Shown here piece by piece: positions 9,384 through 28,152 of a DNA stretch of 64,000 nucleotides. This DNA is from an uncultured Anaerolineae bacterium (GTDB lineage Bacteria; Chloroflexota; Anaerolineae; Aggregatilineales; Phototrophicaceae). Under the pieces are notes generated by a model that made no database searches, had not been told where the DNA came from, and saw nothing but the letters and a program-made list of their open reading frames with translations. The stretch is taken from NCBI GenBank assembly GCA_938022205.1, contig CALIEB010000005.1, positions 62,001 through 126,000 of the forward strand. The letters run 5' to 3'. The stretch's first letter is position 1; every line of letters starts with the position of its first letter. A program made the translations under genes and the position numbers.

Positions 9384-10047
9384 GAAGATGATCAACACGA
9401 TTGAGGAAGTGTATGCGCAGCGTGTCAGGATGTTCGTTAAAGTCAAGCCGCGACATGGCGGTGTTGTAGTGCAGATAAAACAACCCACGCGGCAAAGAGG
9501 GAAGTTGGTTGAAAAACGCCTTAATCAAGATGTCCAAGAACAGCCCGTGACTCACCAGCACGATGTGGTCGTCGCTTTCGGCGCGGCGCAGCAGTGCGCT
9601 CGCCACGCGAATGGCGCGCCCAAGCAGCTCTTCGTGGCTCTCCATGCCCCGCTCAGGCCGCCACCAGCCGTTTTCTGTGACGGCATCATCCATAGTGACC
9701 TCCGGAAAACGGGCAGCAATTTCGGCGCGAGTCATACCCGTGTACCCCTTCATTTGCTTGGTCTGCGGGTCTTCTAGGTAGATGCCGCCGCCCTCGTGAA
9801 TGTCAACCCACACTTGCAGCGGCATGTTTAACGCTTGTGCGAGCGGATACGCTGTTTGCAGGGCGCGCAGCATCGCGCTGCAATAGAGGTGCGTCGGAGT
9901 AAAATCCTTCAACACAGGTAAGTAAGCCGCTAGCCGCCGCGTCTGTTCTTCGCCCTTAGGGGTCAGCGCGGGGTCAGCAACGCGCTGCTTGAAATCTTCA
10001 AGAGCGTTGTTAGTCGATTGAGCGTGGCGAATAAGGTACAGTTGCAT
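9361..10047 (-). CDS. Histidine phosphatase family protein
   Basis: Branch 1 histidine phosphatase (phosphoglycerate mutase-like) of 228 residues. The phosphohistidine motif LIRHAQSTNN is at the extreme N-terminus, the second catalytic histidine is in VSHGLFLD, and the arginine is in SAMLRALQTA. The open frame runs up to 10293, but that extension is antisense to the TauE gene. Real starts are the ATG at 10047 or 10056, behind AGTAGGG. Substrate not predictable. It has a complete active site, unlike the relative in the trp operon. Confidence 0.88.
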   Translation of the reverse strand: MQLYLIRHAQSTNNALEDFKQRVADPALTPKGEEQTRRLAAYLPVLKDFTPTHLYCSAMLRALQTAYPLAQALNMPLQVWVDIHEGGGIYLEDPQTKQMKGYTGMTRAEIAARFPEVTMDDAVTENGWWRPERGMESHEELLGRAIRVASALLRRAESDDHIVLVSHGLFLDILIKAFFNQLPSLPRGLFYLHYNTAMSRLDFNEHPDTLRIHFLNRVDHLPSELWSA

Positions 10048-20462: not shown

Positions 20463-21254
20463 TCAAACGGTTAACCGCTTTTTCAAGCGGTAAATAAAGC
20501 CCTCTTGTGCTGCATGCGTGCGTTCGGCTTCGGTCGCATAAGGCGGGAGCTTGTCACTGGCATCGAAGAACTGCGCGTTATAGCCCGCTATCAAGCAGGC
20601 TGCCACGCTATCCGCCTCATCTTGCGACGTGATGTTTTGTTTAGGAAACCAAACACCACACCGCCAAAATGACCGAAGACGAAAATTAAATTCGACGGAG
20701 CGCGACACATTCAGCCCGTGCCAAACTTGCGAGGGATAGACCTCTATCACTATAGCTTGCGCGCCCTCTATCGGCAAGTGTGGGTAAATGGCCACGCCCG
20801 CTCGATGTAGCATCGCCAAGAGCTTGCCGCCGCTGTAAAGCATGGGCAACAACGCGGGATTGACGCGTTTGCAACCGCTGTATGCCTGCGCAGCGACATC
20901 GGTGGCGCGACAAAACAGGTCATGCTGCGTGCATTTGCGCTCGCTACGCCCTACTTTTGCCTCTATCCAAGCATAAAACTCACGGCGCGACATCGCCAAG
21001 CATACCTCGTAAAGCTGCAAGGGTGAGGCAAGCTCCAACGCCGCTAGTGCTTGCGTGGACAAGCTAAACGGAAAATCCAGTCCCCACACGCCTTGCGAGC
21101 GCACAATAGCCGCGAATAAGTCCATGCGGTCGTCGCATGGCACAATCTCGCTGATAGTCAGGTGCGTAAAATCAGCGTGGCCTTTGGCATAAGCGAGGCG
21201 CGGCGTGCGTGCGCCGCTAAAATCCGCACCGTAAACAGGCGTAAAAAGCAACAT
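20463..21254 (-). CDS. DUF429 protein (predicted RNase H-like) inside the trp operon
   Basis: A 263-residue DUF429-family protein, related to a predicted RNase H-fold nuclease group. Acidic positions fit the family: GADFSGA at the N-terminus, GLDFPFSL near residue 59, EVYPSQ near 170 and SQDEADSVAA near 205. The molecular function of the family is not established. Its start codon shares one base with the trpB stop and trpA follows 67 bases later, so it is transcribed with trp. I know of no role for this family in tryptophan synthesis. Confidence 0.8.
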   Translation of the reverse strand: MLLFTPVYGADFSGARTPRLAYAKGHADFTHLTISEIVPCDDRMDLFAAIVRSQGVWGLDFPFSLSTQALAALELASPLQLYEVCLAMSRREFYAWIEAKVGRSERKCTQHDLFCRATDVAAQAYSGCKRVNPALLPMLYSGGKLLAMLHRAGVAIYPHLPIEGAQAIVIEVYPSQVWHGLNVSRSVEFNFRLRSFWRCGVWFPKQNITSQDEADSVAACLIAGYNAQFFDASDKLPPYATEAERTHAAQEGFIYRLKKRLTV

Positions 21255-22477
21255 TATGCACTCCCTAGCAAGCCTATCACCGTGTCGAGGTCTTTGTCGC
21301 CGCGCCCGCTCAGGTTGACCAGCAGGACACTGTCTTTAGGCATAGTCGGCGCGCGCTTGATAACTTCGGCAATGGCGTGCGCGCTCTCCAACGCGGGAAT
21401 GATGCCCTCATATTGGCTCAGCGTTTGAAAGGCACGCATGGTTTCTTCGTCAGTGGCAAAGGTGTAGTGCGCCCGCTCGAGCGAGCGCAAGTAGGCGTGT
21501 TCGGGTCCGACAGACGGGTAATCCAGCCCCGCGCTGATGCTATGCGTTTCGCGCACCTGTCCATCTTCGTCTTGCATCACAAACGAGCGCGTGCCGTGCA
21601 AGATGCCAACGCGGCTCACGTCTGGGTTGGCGAAGCGCGCGGCGTGCTTGTCGGTGTTGATGCCGTATCCGCCTGCTTCGACACCGACGAGTTCGACGCT
21701 CTCGTCGTCGCGGAAGGCGTGGAACAAACCAATGGCGTTGCTGCCACCGCCCACGCAGGCAACGCACACGTCAGGCAGCTGCCCCGTCGCTGCGAGAATT
21801 TGCTGGCGCGCCTCCATGCCAATGACGCTTTGAAAGTCACGCACCATCATTGGATACGGGTGGGGTCCCAACGCCGACCCCAGCAGGTAGAACGTCGTGC
21901 GCACGTTGGTGACCCAATCGCGCATGGCTTCGTTAATCGCATCTTTCAGCGTCTTGCTGCCGCTCTCGACGGGCAGCACCTCTGCGCCCATCAAGCGCAT
22001 GCGAAAGACGTTGGGCTTTTGTCGCGCCATGTCGACGCTGCCCATATAGACGTGGCAGTCCAGCCCCAAAAGCGCGGCGGCGGTCGCACTGGCAACGCCG
22101 TGCTGCCCCGCGCCGGTCTCGGCAATCACGCGCCGCTTGCCCATGCGTTTTGCCAGCAACGCTTGCCCCAGCGCGTTGTTGATTTTGTGCGCGCCCGTGT
22201 GTGCAAGGTCTTCGCGCTTGAGATAAATGCGCGCGCCGCCCAAAAGCTCGGTTAACCGCTTGGCGTAAGTCAAGGGCGTGGGTCTGCCCACGTACGTTGC
22301 TTGCAAGTGGGCTAGCTCGGCATGAAAAGCAGGGTCTTGCAGTGCTTCGTCATACGCTGCTGTCAGTTCGTCCAACGCGGGCATAATTGTTTCCGGCACA
22401 AAGCGACCGCCAAATTCACCATAGTAGCCGCGTGCGTTTGGCACGTTGGGCGTTGTCTTGCGGATATACCGTTCCAT
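21254..22477 (-). CDS. trpB: Tryptophan synthase beta chain
   Basis: PLP enzyme joining indole and serine. 407 residues from the ATG at 22477, chosen because AAGGTGA lies 6 nt before it; the frame also has an ATG at 22510. The PLP lysine is Lys98 in [13 protein letters not shown], with [20 protein letters not shown] for phosphate binding, and [13 protein letters not shown]. This is the TrpB1 type, which pairs with TrpA. All active-site motifs are present. Confidence 0.96.
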
Positions 22478-22530
22478 CGCTTCACCTTTTTGTTGTCGTC
22501 TCGTTTTCATTTGTCACAAGCGTGTTTCTA

Positions 22531-23190
22531 TCACGCCCCGTAAACCGCCTGCATGAAAGCGTGCAGCTTGGCGTGGTCTTTCACGCCGGCTTGCCCGCTC
22601 TCTACGCCGCTGGCAACATCCACGCCCCAAGGGCGCAGCAGCGCGATGCGCTCGCCCACGTTCTCGGGGGTAAGTCCCCCCGCCAGCATGACGCGCGGCA
22701 CAACGTGCAGTACCGCCTGCGCCACGTCCAACGTGGTGGTCTCGCCGGTGCCACCGCGCAGCGTAGGGTGATAGGCATCGAGCAAAATTTGCGGCACGCG
22801 CTCGTCGTGCGGGAAAAATGGTTCGAAATAGCGACAGTCCTCATAGGCTTGCGCAGTGTTCATCGGTTGGATAGCTTTGTAGGCTTTGGGAAACAGCTCT
22901 TTAAGCGTGGCATCACTCTCGTCACCGCTCAGCTGGGCAAAATCCAGACCAACCTTGTCGACAACCGCCGTGATGTTGCTAACCGCCTCGTTGACGAACA
23001 CACCCACCAGCACGGGGCAGCTCGTGCCGTACTGTCGCCACAGCCCATCGCAAATTGCCGCCGCGTCTTCAGGGGCAATATAGCGCGGGCTGCGCTTGAA
23101 AAAGTTGAACCCGAGCAAATTCACGCCTAGTTCCACACACGCTTGCGCGTCTTCCCAGCGCGTTATGCCGCACACCTTCACGTAAGTCAT
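22531..23190 (-). CDS. trpF: Phosphoribosylanthranilate isomerase
   Basis: Amadori rearrangement of phosphoribosyl-anthranilate. 219 residues from the ATG at 23190, which overlaps the trpC stop by 4 bases. VKVCGITRWEDA carries the catalytic Cys, followed by GFNFFKRSPRYI; the catalytic Asp is in LLDAYHPTLRGGTG, and LAGGLTPENV is in the phosphate loop. The longer frame up to 23352 lies in antisense to trpC and is rejected. Confidence 0.95.
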   Translation of the reverse strand: MTYVKVCGITRWEDAQACVELGVNLLGFNFFKRSPRYIAPEDAAAICDGLWRQYGTSCPVLVGVFVNEAVSNITAVVDKVGLDFAQLSGDESDATLKELFPKAYKAIQPMNTAQAYEDCRYFEPFFPHDERVPQILLDAYHPTLRGGTGETTTLDVAQAVLHVVPRVMLAGGLTPENVGERIALLRPWGVDVASGVESGQAGVKDHAKLHAFMQAVYGA

Positions 23191-23999
23191 CGTCTCACCT
23201 CGCTGAACGCTCGCACAGTTTCGTCTATATGAGACGATTTTACCAAAGTTTCGCCCACCAGCACGGCGGACGCGCCCCACGCCGCCATTTGCGCAATGTC
23301 TGCGGGGGTGGCGATGCCGCTCTCTGCCACTAGTGTCACATCGGGCGGGCAAAGACGCGCCACGCGCTGCGTCGTCGCCAAATCCACCGCAAAAGTCTTG
23401 AGATTGCGATTGTTCACGCCCACCACGCGCGCACCCGCCGCCAATGCCCGCGCTAGCTCTGGCTCGTCATGCACTTCAACCAACGCCGTCATGCCAAGCT
23501 CGGCAATCAGCTGGATAAAGTCGCGCAGCTGCGCATCTGCCAACGCCATCACAATTAGCAGCAGGGCATCCGCGCCCGCCGCTCGCGCTTGGTACACTTG
23601 GTAAGGGTCAATCACAAATTCTTTGCGCAAACACGGCACAGGCACAGCGGCGCGCACGGCACGCAAGTCGTCCAAATGCCCCTGAAAGAACGTCTCATCG
23701 GTCAGCACCGAAATCGCGCTCGCGCCGTTCGCCGCGTAGTTGCGCGCCAACGCTAGCGGGTCAAAGTTCTCTAGCAGCACGCCCTTGCTCGGCGAGGCTT
23801 TTTTGACCTCAGCAATCAGGGCAACGGTTGGCTTGTGCAGTGCCGCCGCAAAGTCGCGCAGGTCAGCGCGGCGCGCCTCTGCTTCAGCGCGTACCTGCGC
23901 CAGCGGCACAGCCGCCGCGTCGCGCGCCACGTCCTGCAGCTTCTGTGCCAAAATGCGGTCGAGATAGGTTTGCGTCGTGATATAGCGCGCTGTTGTCAT
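23187..23999 (-). CDS. trpC: Indole-3-glycerol phosphate synthase
   Basis: Ring closure of CdRP to indole-3-glycerol phosphate. A 270-residue TIM barrel with LIAEVKKASPSKG (catalytic Glu and Lys), RKEFVIDPYQVYQA, LVEVHDEPEL, VVGVNNRNLKTF and VAESGI. It overlaps trpD upstream and trpF downstream by 4 bases each, so trpD-trpC-trpF are translationally coupled. Confidence 0.96.
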   Translation of the reverse strand: MTTARYITTQTYLDRILAQKLQDVARDAAAVPLAQVRAEAEARRADLRDFAAALHKPTVALIAEVKKASPSKGVLLENFDPLALARNYAANGASAISVLTDETFFQGHLDDLRAVRAAVPVPCLRKEFVIDPYQVYQARAAGADALLLIVMALADAQLRDFIQLIAELGMTALVEVHDEPELARALAAGARVVGVNNRNLKTFAVDLATTQRVARLCPPDVTLVAESGIATPADIAQMAAWGASAVLVGETLVKSSHIDETVRAFSEVRR

Positions 24000-25039
24000 G
24001 CCACCACACTCTGGCTATATTCAATGAGTGCGTCGAGTTTTTGCAGAGCCGCTCCGCTTGCTAACGTGTCTTGCGCAAGCGCAATGCCTTCGCGCAAGTC
24101 CACCACCACACCCGCCGCCAGCAACGCCGCCGCCGCGTTCAACAGCACGACATCGCGCTTTGCCCCCGTCTCGCTGCCGTCCAGCACAGCGCGCAAGATA
24201 GCAGCGTTCACGTCGGGCGTGCCGCCGCGCAGCTCGTTCACGTTCGCGCCCTCAAAGCCGTACTCGCGGGGGTCAAGCTCGTAGGTCTCAACGCTGCCGT
24301 CATCGTAAAGCCGGCTGATTTGGTTAGAGCCTGTGACCGTCAGCTCATCGAGATTGCCGTAGCCGCTGACGACCAACGCGCTCTTCGTCCCTAAGCCCTT
24401 CAGCACGTGCGCCAGCAAATCGGTGAGGTCAGGCGCGAACACGCCTAAGAGTTGACGGTTTGCGCCGGCCGGGTTGGTCAAAGGTCCCAAGATGTTAAAG
24501 ATGGTACGTACTCCCATCTCACGACGCGGATTGATAGCATACTTCATAGCAGGGTGCAGTTTGGCGGCGAAGAGAAAGCCAATGCCAACCTCATCAACAC
24601 ACTTGCCCACTTGTTCAGGCGTGAGGTCAAGGTTCACGCCAAGCGCACCCAACACGTCCGCGCTGCCGGCTTGGCTAGTGGCGGCGCGGTTGCCGTGCTT
24701 GGCGACGCGCACGCCCGCGCCCGCCGCCACAAACGCCACCGTCGTGCTGATGTTGAAGGTGTGCGACTTGTCGCCACCAGTGCCGCAGGTGTCCAGCAAA
24801 TCGCCGTTAGCTTGCACCGGCACTTTTTGCGCCTTGTCGCGCATGGCACGCGCGCTGCCAATAATCTCTTCAGGCGTTTCGCCCTTCATGCGCAGCCCCA
24901 TCAGATACGCGCCAATTTGGGCTTCTGTGGCTTCGCCGCTCATGATTTGCAGCATCACCTGTTCCGCCTCTTGCTCTTGCAGATGCCCAAAACGGCTGAT
25001 GAGGTCAATTGCACGCTGAATGGTCATTGTTGAAGTCAT
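23996..25039 (-). CDS. trpD: Anthranilate phosphoribosyltransferase
   Basis: Transfers phosphoribose from PRPP to anthranilate. 347 residues; the PRPP loop is DTCGTGGDKSHTFNIST, followed by KHGNRAATSQAGSADVLEALG-like sequence and HPAMKYAINPRREMG. Two in-frame ATGs lie at the N-terminus (25039 and 25027). Downstream overlap with trpC is 4 bases. Confidence 0.96.
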   Translation of the reverse strand: MTSTMTIQRAIDLISRFGHLQEQEAEQVMLQIMSGEATEAQIGAYLMGLRMKGETPEEIIGSARAMRDKAQKVPVQANGDLLDTCGTGGDKSHTFNISTTVAFVAAGAGVRVAKHGNRAATSQAGSADVLGALGVNLDLTPEQVGKCVDEVGIGFLFAAKLHPAMKYAINPRREMGVRTIFNILGPLTNPAGANRQLLGVFAPDLTDLLAHVLKGLGTKSALVVSGYGNLDELTVTGSNQISRLYDDGSVETYELDPREYGFEGANVNELRGGTPDVNAAILRAVLDGSETGAKRDVVLLNAAAALLAAGVVVDLREGIALAQDTLASGAALQKLDALIEYSQSVVA

Positions 25040-25051
25040 GCGCTGCCCTTT

Positions 25052-25633
25052 CTATGCCTGCGCCAAAACGGGCATGGTCAAGAAGTTTTGCAAAATGCGA
25101 ATACCGTTTAACGTCAAGATGCTTTCGGGGTGAAACTGCACGCCGACGACGGGGTAACGCTTGTGGCGCAAGCCCATAATCTCGCCGTCGTCCGTCCACG
25201 CTGTGACGACTAGCTCATCGGGCAAGGTCTCCTGCTCGACAATGAGGCTGTGGTAGCGTGTGGCTTGAAAGGGATTGCCCAGCCCGCGAAACAGCGGGTC
25301 ATCGTCGTGCTGAATCATGCTCACCTTGCCGTGCATTTGCTGCTTAGCATGCTTGACCACACCGCCGTAAACTTCGCCAATGGCTTGATGCCCAAGGCAC
25401 ACGCCCAAAATCGGCGTGGTCGCACCAAACGCGCGAATCACCGCGCAGGAAATGCCCGCGTCCTTAGGAAACCCAGGTCCAGGAGAGATGACGATGTGGG
25501 AGGGCGCAAGCGCAGCAATCTCATCGAGCGTGATTTGGTCGTTGCGCACCACGCGCAGTTGTGCGCCAAGCTCGCCCATTTCTTGCACAATGTTGTAGGT
25601 AAAGCTGTCGTAGTTGTCGATAATCAACATCAT
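25052..25633 (-). CDS. trpG: Anthranilate synthase component II (glutamine amidotransferase)
   Basis: Supplies ammonia from glutamine to TrpE. A 193-residue class I amidotransferase with the triad Cys79 in GVCLGHQAIG and His168/Glu170 in VQFHPES, plus the oxyanion loop SPGPGFP. It is stand-alone, not fused to trpE or trpD. It starts 2 nt after the stop of the phosphatase-like gene. Confidence 0.95.
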   Translation of the reverse strand: MMLIIDNYDSFTYNIVQEMGELGAQLRVVRNDQITLDEIAALAPSHIVISPGPGFPKDAGISCAVIRAFGATTPILGVCLGHQAIGEVYGGVVKHAKQQMHGKVSMIQHDDDPLFRGLGNPFQATRYHSLIVEQETLPDELVVTAWTDDGEIMGLRHKRYPVVGVQFHPESILTLNGIRILQNFLTMPVLAQA

Positions 25634-25635
25634 GA

Positions 25636-26286
25636 TTAAGACATCCTCTTTTCCATTTCGTCCATTGAAAACGTTTCCATTTTGTCGAGATGCGAGATGT
25701 CATCCAAAAGCCCAATCCGCCACACGTTGTCCCATTGGCGTTCAATGGTCGTCACTGACGAGTTCGAATAAGCATGCGAATTGGGGTTGTAGTCCGGCAC
25801 AAGGTCGGTGAGCAGCGTGCGAATGGCTGTCGAGTGCGTGATGATGCCGACAATCTCGCCACCGCCGCGCTGCATGATGTCCTCAAAGCACGCGCGCACG
25901 CGATCCACGACCTGGCGGCGCGACTCCCCCCCGGCGATTTGATAGTCGATAGGGTTAGCTTGCAGGCGCGCGTACTCTTCTGGATACCACGCAATAACCT
26001 CTTCCTGCGTCAAGCCCTGCCATTCGCCGATGTGCCGCTCGCGCAGACGACGGTCAGGAATGGGCGTGATACCCATCGCCTCCGCCAAGATGTTGGCAGT
26101 GTCCATCGCCCGCCGCAAATCGCTGGTATACAACGCTTTGATGCCCAGCGGCTGGATAAATTTGGCGAGACGCTGCACCTGCTCGCGCCCGTGTGCGTTC
26201 AGCGGCACAGCGACTTGACCTTGCCAGCGACGCATTCTGTTCCAATCCGTTTCGCCCGGTCGGATAAAGACAACCCGTTTAATCAT
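25636..26286 (-). CDS. Histidine phosphatase-like protein lacking the nucleophilic histidine
   Basis: A 216-residue protein with the fold motifs of the phosphoglycerate mutase-like histidine phosphatases, lying between trpE and trpG. The canonical RHGET motif reads IRPGETDWN: the codon after Arg9 is CCG, so the phosphorylated histidine is Pro10. The rest is kept: Arg58 in SDLRRAMDTA, Glu83 in RERHIGEWQG and His151 in ITHSTAIRT. A pseudo-enzyme or a binding role is therefore likely. AGAGGA precedes the ATG, and gaps to its neighbours are 30 and 2 nt, so it belongs to the operon. Confidence 0.85.
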   Translation of the reverse strand: MIKRVVFIRPGETDWNRMRRWQGQVAVPLNAHGREQVQRLAKFIQPLGIKALYTSDLRRAMDTANILAEAMGITPIPDRRLRERHIGEWQGLTQEEVIAWYPEEYARLQANPIDYQIAGGESRRQVVDRVRACFEDIMQRGGGEIVGIITHSTAIRTLLTDLVPDYNPNSHAYSNSSVTTIERQWDNVWRIGLLDDISHLDKMETFSMDEMEKRMS

Positions 26287-26316: not shown

Positions 26317-27831
26317 CTATAGTAACCCATTTTCAGCGTAACGGATGGCTTCTGCAACTGCCTTTGCTTTGTTAATGCACTCTTGATGTTCGCTCGTTGG
26401 GTTGCTGTCGGCGACAATGCCCGCGCCGGCTTGCAAATAGACGCGCCTGCCCTGCATCAGCAGCGCACGAATGGTGATGCACATGTCCATTGAGCCGTCA
26501 AAGCTAAAGTAGCCCACCGCGCCACCATATACCCCACGCCGCGTGCCTTCTAGCTCTTCGATGATTTCCATTGCCCGCACTTTAGGCGCGCCGCTCAACG
26601 TGCCGGCGGGAAACGTCGCACGCAGCAGGTCAAAAGCGTCTAGCTCCGGGCGCAGCTTGCCCTCAACGTGGCTGACGATGTGCATAACGTGCGAGTAACG
26701 CTCGATAAACATCATGTGCGGCACGTGAACGCTGCCATAGGTACACACGCGCCCCAAGTCGTTGCGCCCCAAGTCGACCAGCATGACATGCTCAGCACGC
26801 TCTTTGGGGTCATGCAGCAACTCATCCGCCAACGCCTTATCCTCGTCTTCGGTCGCGCCGCGCTTGCGCGTGCCGGCAATTGGGCGGTTGCTGGCGATGC
26901 CGTCCTCGAGCCGCACCATCATTTCGGGGGATGCCCCCACCAGCGTCAGCTCGGGCGAGAACTGCAGCAAAAACATATAGGGCGAGGGATTGAGCGCACG
27001 CAGCGCGCGGTAAATCATCAGCGGGCTGGCGGTCGTCTCGCGGGTGAACCGCTGGGAAAGCACAACTTGAAAAGCATCGCCGTTGCGAATGTACGCCTTA
27101 GCACGCTCGACGTTCGCCTCAAACTGCGCCTGCGTCACGTTAGAAGTCAGCTCTTGGTGCGGATTTGGTTCGGCGACAGCAATCGGCGGCAGCGGCTGCC
27201 CTAGCGTGACGACAAGGCGGTCGATGCGCTGCACCGCCTCTTTGTAGGCAGCAAGCGGATTGTTGTTGGCGTTATGCGCGTTAGCGAGGATGATGAGCTG
27301 ATGTTTGGCGTGGTCAAAGATAATCAGCGTGTCGGGGAACATAAACGCCGCCTCCGGCACGTCAAGCTCGCGCCGCGCAGTGGTGGGCAGCCGCTCAAAA
27401 TAGCGCACCACGTCATAGCTTAAGTAGCCTACCGCACCACCAACAAAGCGCGGCAGCCCCGCCACTTTGACAGGATGATACTGCGATAAGATATTCTTAA
27501 GCGCGTGGAGCGGGTCTTGTCCGTCAGGCAGCGCGTATTGTGTGCGGCTGCCGTTCTGGGTGTGCGTGACCACGCCTTGATTGACGAACAGCGTTTGCGA
27601 GGGGTTCACGCCGATAAACGAATAGCGTCCGACTTTTTCGCCACCTTCGACGCTTTCCAGCAGGAACGCCACTTCGCCCGCCTGTGTCAGCTTCATGAAC
27701 ACCGACACAGGCGTTTCGAGGTCTGCCAGCAGCACGCGATACACTGGCACGAGGTCGCCTTTTTCAAACAACGCCAACACCTCCTCGCGGCTGGGTTTGA
27801 TGTCGGCGCGCACACGTTCGGAAAACACCAT
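26317..27831 (-). CDS. trpE: Anthranilate synthase component I
   Basis: Makes anthranilate from chorismate with TrpG. 504 residues from the ATG at 27831, 9 nt after AAGGAG; the GTG at 27840 is too close to that site. The N-terminal AFLLESVEGGEKVGRYSF contains the tryptophan feedback site (LLES). The C-terminal chorismate-binding domain has PSPYMFLLQF, GASPEMMVRL, RPIAGTRKRG and GTLSGAPKVRAMEII. It is the first gene of the operon, directly behind the T-box leader. Confidence 0.96.
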   Translation of the reverse strand: MVFSERVRADIKPSREEVLALFEKGDLVPVYRVLLADLETPVSVFMKLTQAGEVAFLLESVEGGEKVGRYSFIGVNPSQTLFVNQGVVTHTQNGSRTQYALPDGQDPLHALKNILSQYHPVKVAGLPRFVGGAVGYLSYDVVRYFERLPTTARRELDVPEAAFMFPDTLIIFDHAKHQLIILANAHNANNNPLAAYKEAVQRIDRLVVTLGQPLPPIAVAEPNPHQELTSNVTQAQFEANVERAKAYIRNGDAFQVVLSQRFTRETTASPLMIYRALRALNPSPYMFLLQFSPELTLVGASPEMMVRLEDGIASNRPIAGTRKRGATEDEDKALADELLHDPKERAEHVMLVDLGRNDLGRVCTYGSVHVPHMMFIERYSHVMHIVSHVEGKLRPELDAFDLLRATFPAGTLSGAPKVRAMEIIEELEGTRRGVYGGAVGYFSFDGSMDMCITIRALLMQGRRVYLQAGAGIVADSNPTSEHQECINKAKAVAEAIRYAENGLL

Positions 27832-27856
27832 AAGGGACACTCCTTCGCAAGCAAAT

Positions 27857-27892
27857 AAAAAATCCTCTCATCCACACAAGGACGAGGAGGAT
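27857..27892 (-). terminator. T-box-controlled terminator before trpE
   Basis: On the minus strand, arms at 27892-27880 and 27873-27862 (right arm GGATGAGAGGAT) form an imperfect stem followed by six T residues, ending about 25 bases before the trpE ATG. The upstream arm borders the T-box sequence, as expected for mutually exclusive structures. Confidence 0.85.
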
Positions 27893-28152
27893 TATCGCTC
27901 GCGGTGCCACCTTGTTTGAGGCAAACAATGCCCCCACTCTGTCGGTACAGGGCGCGCTGCCCGATACCGTGCGCTGTGATAACGGTGCGCCTCCGTCACG
28001 GACTACTGTGCGTGTGCGGTTTGCCCGTGCAACTCCCCAGCCCATTCGGTTTTGTCGTGCGTACCGCCTTCACACCCGCTAGCGGCTCTCTGAACGTCGG
28101 TGCAAAACGTACTCTTCTGGTTCAACGTCTTTGCTTGAGATATGCGGTTGTT
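27857..28152 (-). ncRNA. Tryptophan T-box riboswitch leader
   Basis: The trpE leader read on the minus strand has T-box landmarks in order: AGAGAG of the stem I distal loop (28091-28086), a candidate specifier GAA-TGG with the Trp codon TGG at 28044-28042, CCGTTA (27985-27980), and the T-box itself AAGGTGGCACCGCG at 27913-27900 (consensus AGGGTGGNACCGCG). A terminator hairpin and T tract follow. Uncharged tRNA-Trp is expected to stabilise the antiterminator and turn on the trp genes. The overall class is firm; the specifier assignment is by position and motif, not by full folding. Confidence 0.9.

Follow-up and report, generated by a model that had tools for sequence, protein, structure and literature searches.

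A putative pseudo-histidine-phosphatase encoded between trpE and trpG in the Phototrophicaceae

Catalysis in the histidine phosphatase superfamily passes through a phosphohistidine, formed at the histidine of the family motif RHG. Among the listed structural matches to the protein described here, the best solved one is the novel-type phosphoserine phosphatase PspA of Hydrogenobacter thermophilus (4ij5), which carries His9 as nucleophile. PspB, a branch-1 paralogue said to be inactive alone, is reportedly the non-catalytic partner of PspA. To our knowledge, PspB has no link to a trp operon. PhoE/YhfR (1h2e) and other branch-1 histidine phosphatases are RHG proteins as well. A small residue in place of the nucleophile, with the pocket left intact, is found in the laboratory mutants H9A (4ij6, 5zr2), H11A of TIGAR (3e9e) and H256A of PFK-2/FBPase-2 (2bif). 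According to the structure titles of 5zr2 and 2bif, and to the available part of the 4ij6 record, such His-to-Ala relatives were crystallised with substrate or product. The Hydrogenobacter phosphoserine phosphatases are cited in PMC3590821.

The window analysed here is a stretch of 64,000 nucleotides from an uncultured Anaerolineae bacterium of the family Phototrophicaceae. It contains a trp operon with all genes on one strand, in the order trpE, a histidine phosphatase-like gene (termed trp-type HP), trpG, trpD, trpC, trpF and trpB:

27875..28134, minus strand: T-box leader preceding trpE, with the specifier UGG (Trp) read by eye
26317..27840, minus strand: trpE, anthranilate synthase component I, directly upstream of trp-type HP (profile match)
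25636..26286, minus strand: trp-type HP, putative pseudo-histidine-phosphatase of 216 residues (Pfam match, orthologue comparison)
25052..25633, minus strand: trpG, anthranilate synthase component II, directly downstream of trp-type HP (profile match)
23996..25039, minus strand: trpD, anthranilate phosphoribosyltransferase (profile match)
23187..23999, minus strand: trpC (translation; named by sequence and gene order)
22531..23190, minus strand: trpF, start set at the internal ATG 23190 (named by sequence and gene order)
21254..22510, minus strand: trpB (named by sequence and gene order)

The trp-type HP gene begins with ATG. It is separated from trpE, which ends at 26317, by 30 nt and from trpG, which starts at 25633, by 2 nt; both gaps had been given in the initial annotation and agree with the reading-frame coordinates. 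A second histidine phosphatase domain lies elsewhere in the window, at 9424-10041 on the minus strand (G000:C5:71424-72041), within a longer open frame of 326 residues.

Residues 5–186 of trp-type HP match the branch-1 profile His_Phos_1 (PF00300) with 172 bits (cut-off 21.7). The AlphaFold2 model, calculated from a 12-row alignment, has a pLDDT of 92.8 and matches structures of the family with Z-scores of 22–29 (50 matches listed), which assigns it to the family fold. The alignment with 4ij5 (Z 29.1) comprises 209 residues with a deviation of 2.1 Å and 27% identity. The H9A mutant 4ij6 (Z 28.3) and PhoE (1h2e, Z 26.9) come next. The fold and the phosphate-pocket residues are shared with PspA, as is a Thr or Ser after the second pocket histidine. 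Against the PspA profile NF045917, trp-type HP scores 106 bits, below the curated cut-off of 350. It differs from PspA in its operon place, in the residue at the position of the nucleophile (Pro, Ser, Ala or Thr instead of His9) and at two further positions, where PspA has Ile and Lys and trp-type HP has Arg84 and Trp100. From PhoE/YhfR and the other branch-1 enzymes, with which it shares family and fold, it is set apart by RPG in place of RHG.

The positions that define the active site are located as follows:

26254..26262, minus strand: codons of residues 9–11, Arg-Pro-Gly replacing Arg-His-Gly (sequence, orthologue alignment)
26110..26112, minus strand: codon of Arg59, the catalytic, phosphate-binding arginine, kept in 58/58 orthologues (orthologue alignment)
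26035..26040, minus strand: codons of Glu83 (general acid position) and Arg84, each kept in 58/58 (orthologue alignment)
25834..25836, minus strand: codon of His151, the second pocket histidine, kept in 58/58 (orthologue alignment)

Residues 9–11 are encoded by CGA CCG GGC, as first annotated, and the nucleophilic histidine is replaced by Pro10. The remainder of the pocket, consisting of two arginines, the second histidine and an acidic residue, is present as Arg9, Arg59, His151 and Glu83. The initial annotation had listed Arg58, Glu83 and His151 as retained. The latter two were identified properly, whereas the catalytic arginine is Arg59; residue 58 is variable among the orthologues (Arg 38, Lys 14, Val 4, Gln 1, Cys 1). 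This placement relies on the motif S-x-L-x-R-A, which we take to mark the catalytic arginine.

A seven-member profile was searched against 98 genomes of the window's family. The scores split the set, with 58 genomes at 265 bits or more and the next matches at 223 bits or less. According to the table of this search, the 58 genomes span 20 of 24 genera. L003 and G249/L086, which by length and position are one contig, were counted once. In all 58 loci the next trp gene upstream is trpE on the same strand, at a distance below 200 nt except in L104 (740 nt), and trpG is the next gene downstream in 57/57; in L141 the contig ends inside the trp-type HP gene before trpG is reached. The distances to trpE and trpG were measured from the ends of tblastn matches. 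Stop and start codons of trp-type HP and trpG overlap by exactly 4 nt in 32 of these 57 loci, and this frequent overlap favours coupled translation of both genes. In L113 (G212:C13) trpE has a stop or frameshift at about residue 418 next to an intact trp-type HP gene, possibly an assembly error.

As far as sampled, the insertion is restricted to the window's family. Outside of it, a single-sequence query found no match above 134 bits in 199 genomes of the class, and none was seen in a set of 154 genomes of the order, in which the 58 orthologues of the window's family score at least 265 bits and all listed out-of-family matches 189 bits or less. All 13 out-of-family matches inspected have RHG. 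A strict DNA pattern for the RPG motif gave eight matches in 400 genomes of the phylum, and the reading frames of the seven beyond the window do not encode histidine phosphatases; this pattern misses true orthologues too, so the scan bounds little.

None of the 58 orthologues has a histidine at residue 10 (Pro 51, Ser 5, Ala 1, Thr 1). An isolated substitution or a sequencing error at this position is thereby ruled out. The histidine is present in all 21 aligned RHG paralogues from the same bacterial family, a non-random set of 20 fetched sequences and L014, taken mostly from the stronger-scoring rows of the profile search. On the tree, residue 10 changed at least six times, always among Pro, Ser, Ala and Thr. 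The proline codon is one base away from a histidine codon in 23 of the 51 cases (CCC 16, CCT 7), yet none has become His. Arg9, Arg59, Glu83 and His151, on the other hand, are invariant in 58/58, Asn16 is kept in 57/58 and Gly11 is replaced by Ala in one orthologue (L104). An orthologue with RHG in the same context, which would have spoken for a chance substitution, was sought among the 58 and does not occur. The suggestion of a conserved pseudophosphatase at the trp locus thus holds across 58 genomes: the fold is conserved, and so is the absence of a residue needed for catalysis.

The four pocket residues are conserved throughout the superfamily, and structural demands could account for some of this conservation. 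Other residues distinguish the trp-type HP clade from the paralogues. Arg84 is invariant (58/58), whereas Phe, Leu, Ile, Val and Met are the commonest residues of the paralogues; it presumably corresponds to the substrate-binding arginine beside the catalytic glutamate of phosphoglycerate mutase (R90 of human BPGM). Trp100 (58/58) likewise sets the clade apart. Residue 152, following His151, is Thr or Ser in 58/58 and Gly in 21/21 paralogues, and Glu12 (58/58) corresponds to Gln in 13 and Glu in eight paralogues. These invariants point to a pocket that may be changed but still used. Conservation in at least 57 of the 58 orthologues extends to 36 of the 216 positions, and the pocket thus falls within the most conserved sixth of the protein.

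The 58 orthologues occupy one side of a single branch against the 21 paralogues (support 100/99). A sample of 20 orthologues again forms one clade in a tree with 18 further proteins, of which 17 come from beyond the family (support 100/100). On the TrpE tree, built from 77 of 78 sequences with one too-short row excluded, presence and absence of the gene require four changes. From these trees, the distribution is best read as an old single gain followed by about four losses (g7, g145, g137 and g6). In genus g7 all genomes but one are without the gene; G255 retains it. A trpE match is present in 36 of the 40 family genomes without trp-type HP, and in all 20 of these 36 loci that were fetched, trpE and trpG are adjacent (16–181 nt apart) with no histidine phosphatase match between them. 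For other families of the order, trpE was matched in 15 of 20 genomes, with no histidine phosphatase match near it (0/15 loci); trpG follows directly in 14 loci, and in the remaining one a trpS gene lies between trpE and trpG. The gene is under purifying selection. In 11 of 13 close pairs with a finite Ks (Nei-Gojobori; two pairs are saturated), omega is 0.026–0.213; TrpG gives 0.023–0.127 over the 13 pairs used.

Other genes were observed in the trp loci of relatives. Many contain trpS (tryptophanyl-tRNA synthetase, named from sequence), located between trpG and trpD in L097, L098, L103, L108 and others and between trpE and trpG in L188. In several, the gene between trpG and trpD encodes a conserved protein of the HNH type, about 290 residues long and with GDVLW or GDILW near its N-terminus:

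L086, 8026-8913: HNH-type protein
L087, 9484-10428: HNH-type protein
L117, 7676-8542: HNH-type protein
L130, 8311-9234: HNH-type protein
L136, 8870-9784: HNH-type protein

Loss of the nucleophile and about four apparent gene losses are what a decaying or isolated mutant gene would leave behind. However, the presence of orthologues in 58 genomes and 20 of 24 genera, an omega well below 1 and the lack of His at residue 10 in every one of them contradict decay and make it extremely improbable. Most likely, trp-type HP has a role other than classical hydrolysis, because the nucleophile is lost in every orthologue while the pocket is kept under strong selection; judged from these sequences, it is very probably not a classical phosphatase. 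It may still be an enzyme, using water, another side chain or His151, or performing a different reaction on a phosphorylated trp intermediate. The pocket apart from the nucleophile is invariant, including the general acid Glu83, and a pure scaffold would need none of it. Nevertheless, residue 10 varies among four residues, so that no new nucleophile has been fixed there, relatives keep the trp operon without the gene, and the His-to-Ala mutants of related enzymes were crystallised with their substrate (5zr2 and, from the available part of its record, 4ij6). Continued catalysis of this kind is thus unlikely.

Alternatively, trp-type HP could assist an active histidine phosphatase without catalysing anything itself, as PspB reportedly does with PspA, and perhaps tune how much serine is available to TrpB as co-substrate. 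The closest solved structure and the shared Thr/Ser after the second pocket histidine would fit, and the profile search lists a paralogue match of at least 138 bits for 47 of the 58 gene-bearing genomes. For the other 11 it lists no such close paralogue, among them G019 (97% complete) and G237 (96%), whereas genus g7, nearly devoid of trp-type HP, retains it. The partner role also leaves the place between trpE and trpG without explanation, and little probability is assigned to it. This place, together with the overlap with trpG, would be accounted for if the protein served as a factor in the structure or assembly of TrpE-TrpG and made no use of its pocket. The invariant phosphate-binding residues, and likewise Arg84 beside Glu83, disagree with an unused pocket, and such a factor appears improbable as well. 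A search for linked changes in TrpE and TrpG after gene loss gave no interface signal; there is one weak site, TrpG 117, with a difference in three of the four lineages that lost the gene. Since TrpE and TrpG are little affected by gene loss, a large, obligatory interface with them is disfavoured, and since about four lineages maintain a trp operon that lacks the gene, trp-type HP is dispensable.

Ligand-gated regulation of TrpE-TrpG is the most likely of the explanations, because the gene lies between those of anthranilate synthase and frequently overlaps trpG. With Pro at residue 10 (Ser, Ala or Thr in relatives), no phosphohistidine intermediate would form and trp-type HP would be a pseudoenzyme. 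By analogy, the natural replacement of His by a small residue may copy the substrate-trapping H9A mutants, which were made in the laboratory. Arg9, Arg59 and His151, which hold the phosphate, and the acid Glu83 would allow a phosphorylated, probably also carboxylated, metabolite to be bound without hydrolysis; binding of a phosphorylated ligand is somewhat more probable than not. The ligand state would then be relayed to the anthranilate synthase encoded by the flanking genes. That the protein could regulate this enzyme or bind a phosphorylated intermediate had been proposed at the outset. Both the kept pocket and the stop/start overlap with trpG speak for it, whereas the absence of linked changes in TrpE and TrpG after gene loss lends it no support. 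Taken as a whole, a ligand-binding pseudophosphatase that regulates anthranilate synthase is a serious candidate with somewhat less than an even chance of being correct.

The proposed metabolite input would be added to an operon already controlled by a T-box. T-boxes were found in 5/5 gene-bearing and 3/4 gene-less trp loci scanned. In the family, such leaders are seen in the window (27875-28134, minus strand) and in L085, L087, L089, L104, L130, L162, L166 and L174. The TrpE motif FLLES, presumably the usual motif of feedback by Trp, is found in 52/58 sequences with trp-type HP and 17/20 without it. Because the motif is kept in both groups, no feedback role is visibly missing. For Dehalococcoides, T-boxes associated with trpE are noted in PMC2494555.

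A more specific reading is tentative and rather doubtful. The nucleophile might have been lost on entry into the trp operon, leaving a natural substrate-trap that now serves anthranilate synthase as a dedicated subunit. It would set the flux from chorismate to tryptophan by sensing a metabolite that bears a phosphate and a second acidic group, such as phosphoribosyl-anthranilate, CdRP, PRPP, phosphoserine or 3-phosphoglycerate. No description of such a protein, or of such control of the first committed step at the protein level, was found in the open-access literature searched. The regulation of tryptophan biosynthesis is textbook material, and trp-type HP, if the reading is true, would add a new layer of control to it. 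It would also be a clear example of an enzyme turned into a sensor by the loss of one residue. The gene is present in some members of the family and cleanly absent from other close relatives, which provides a ready-made comparison.
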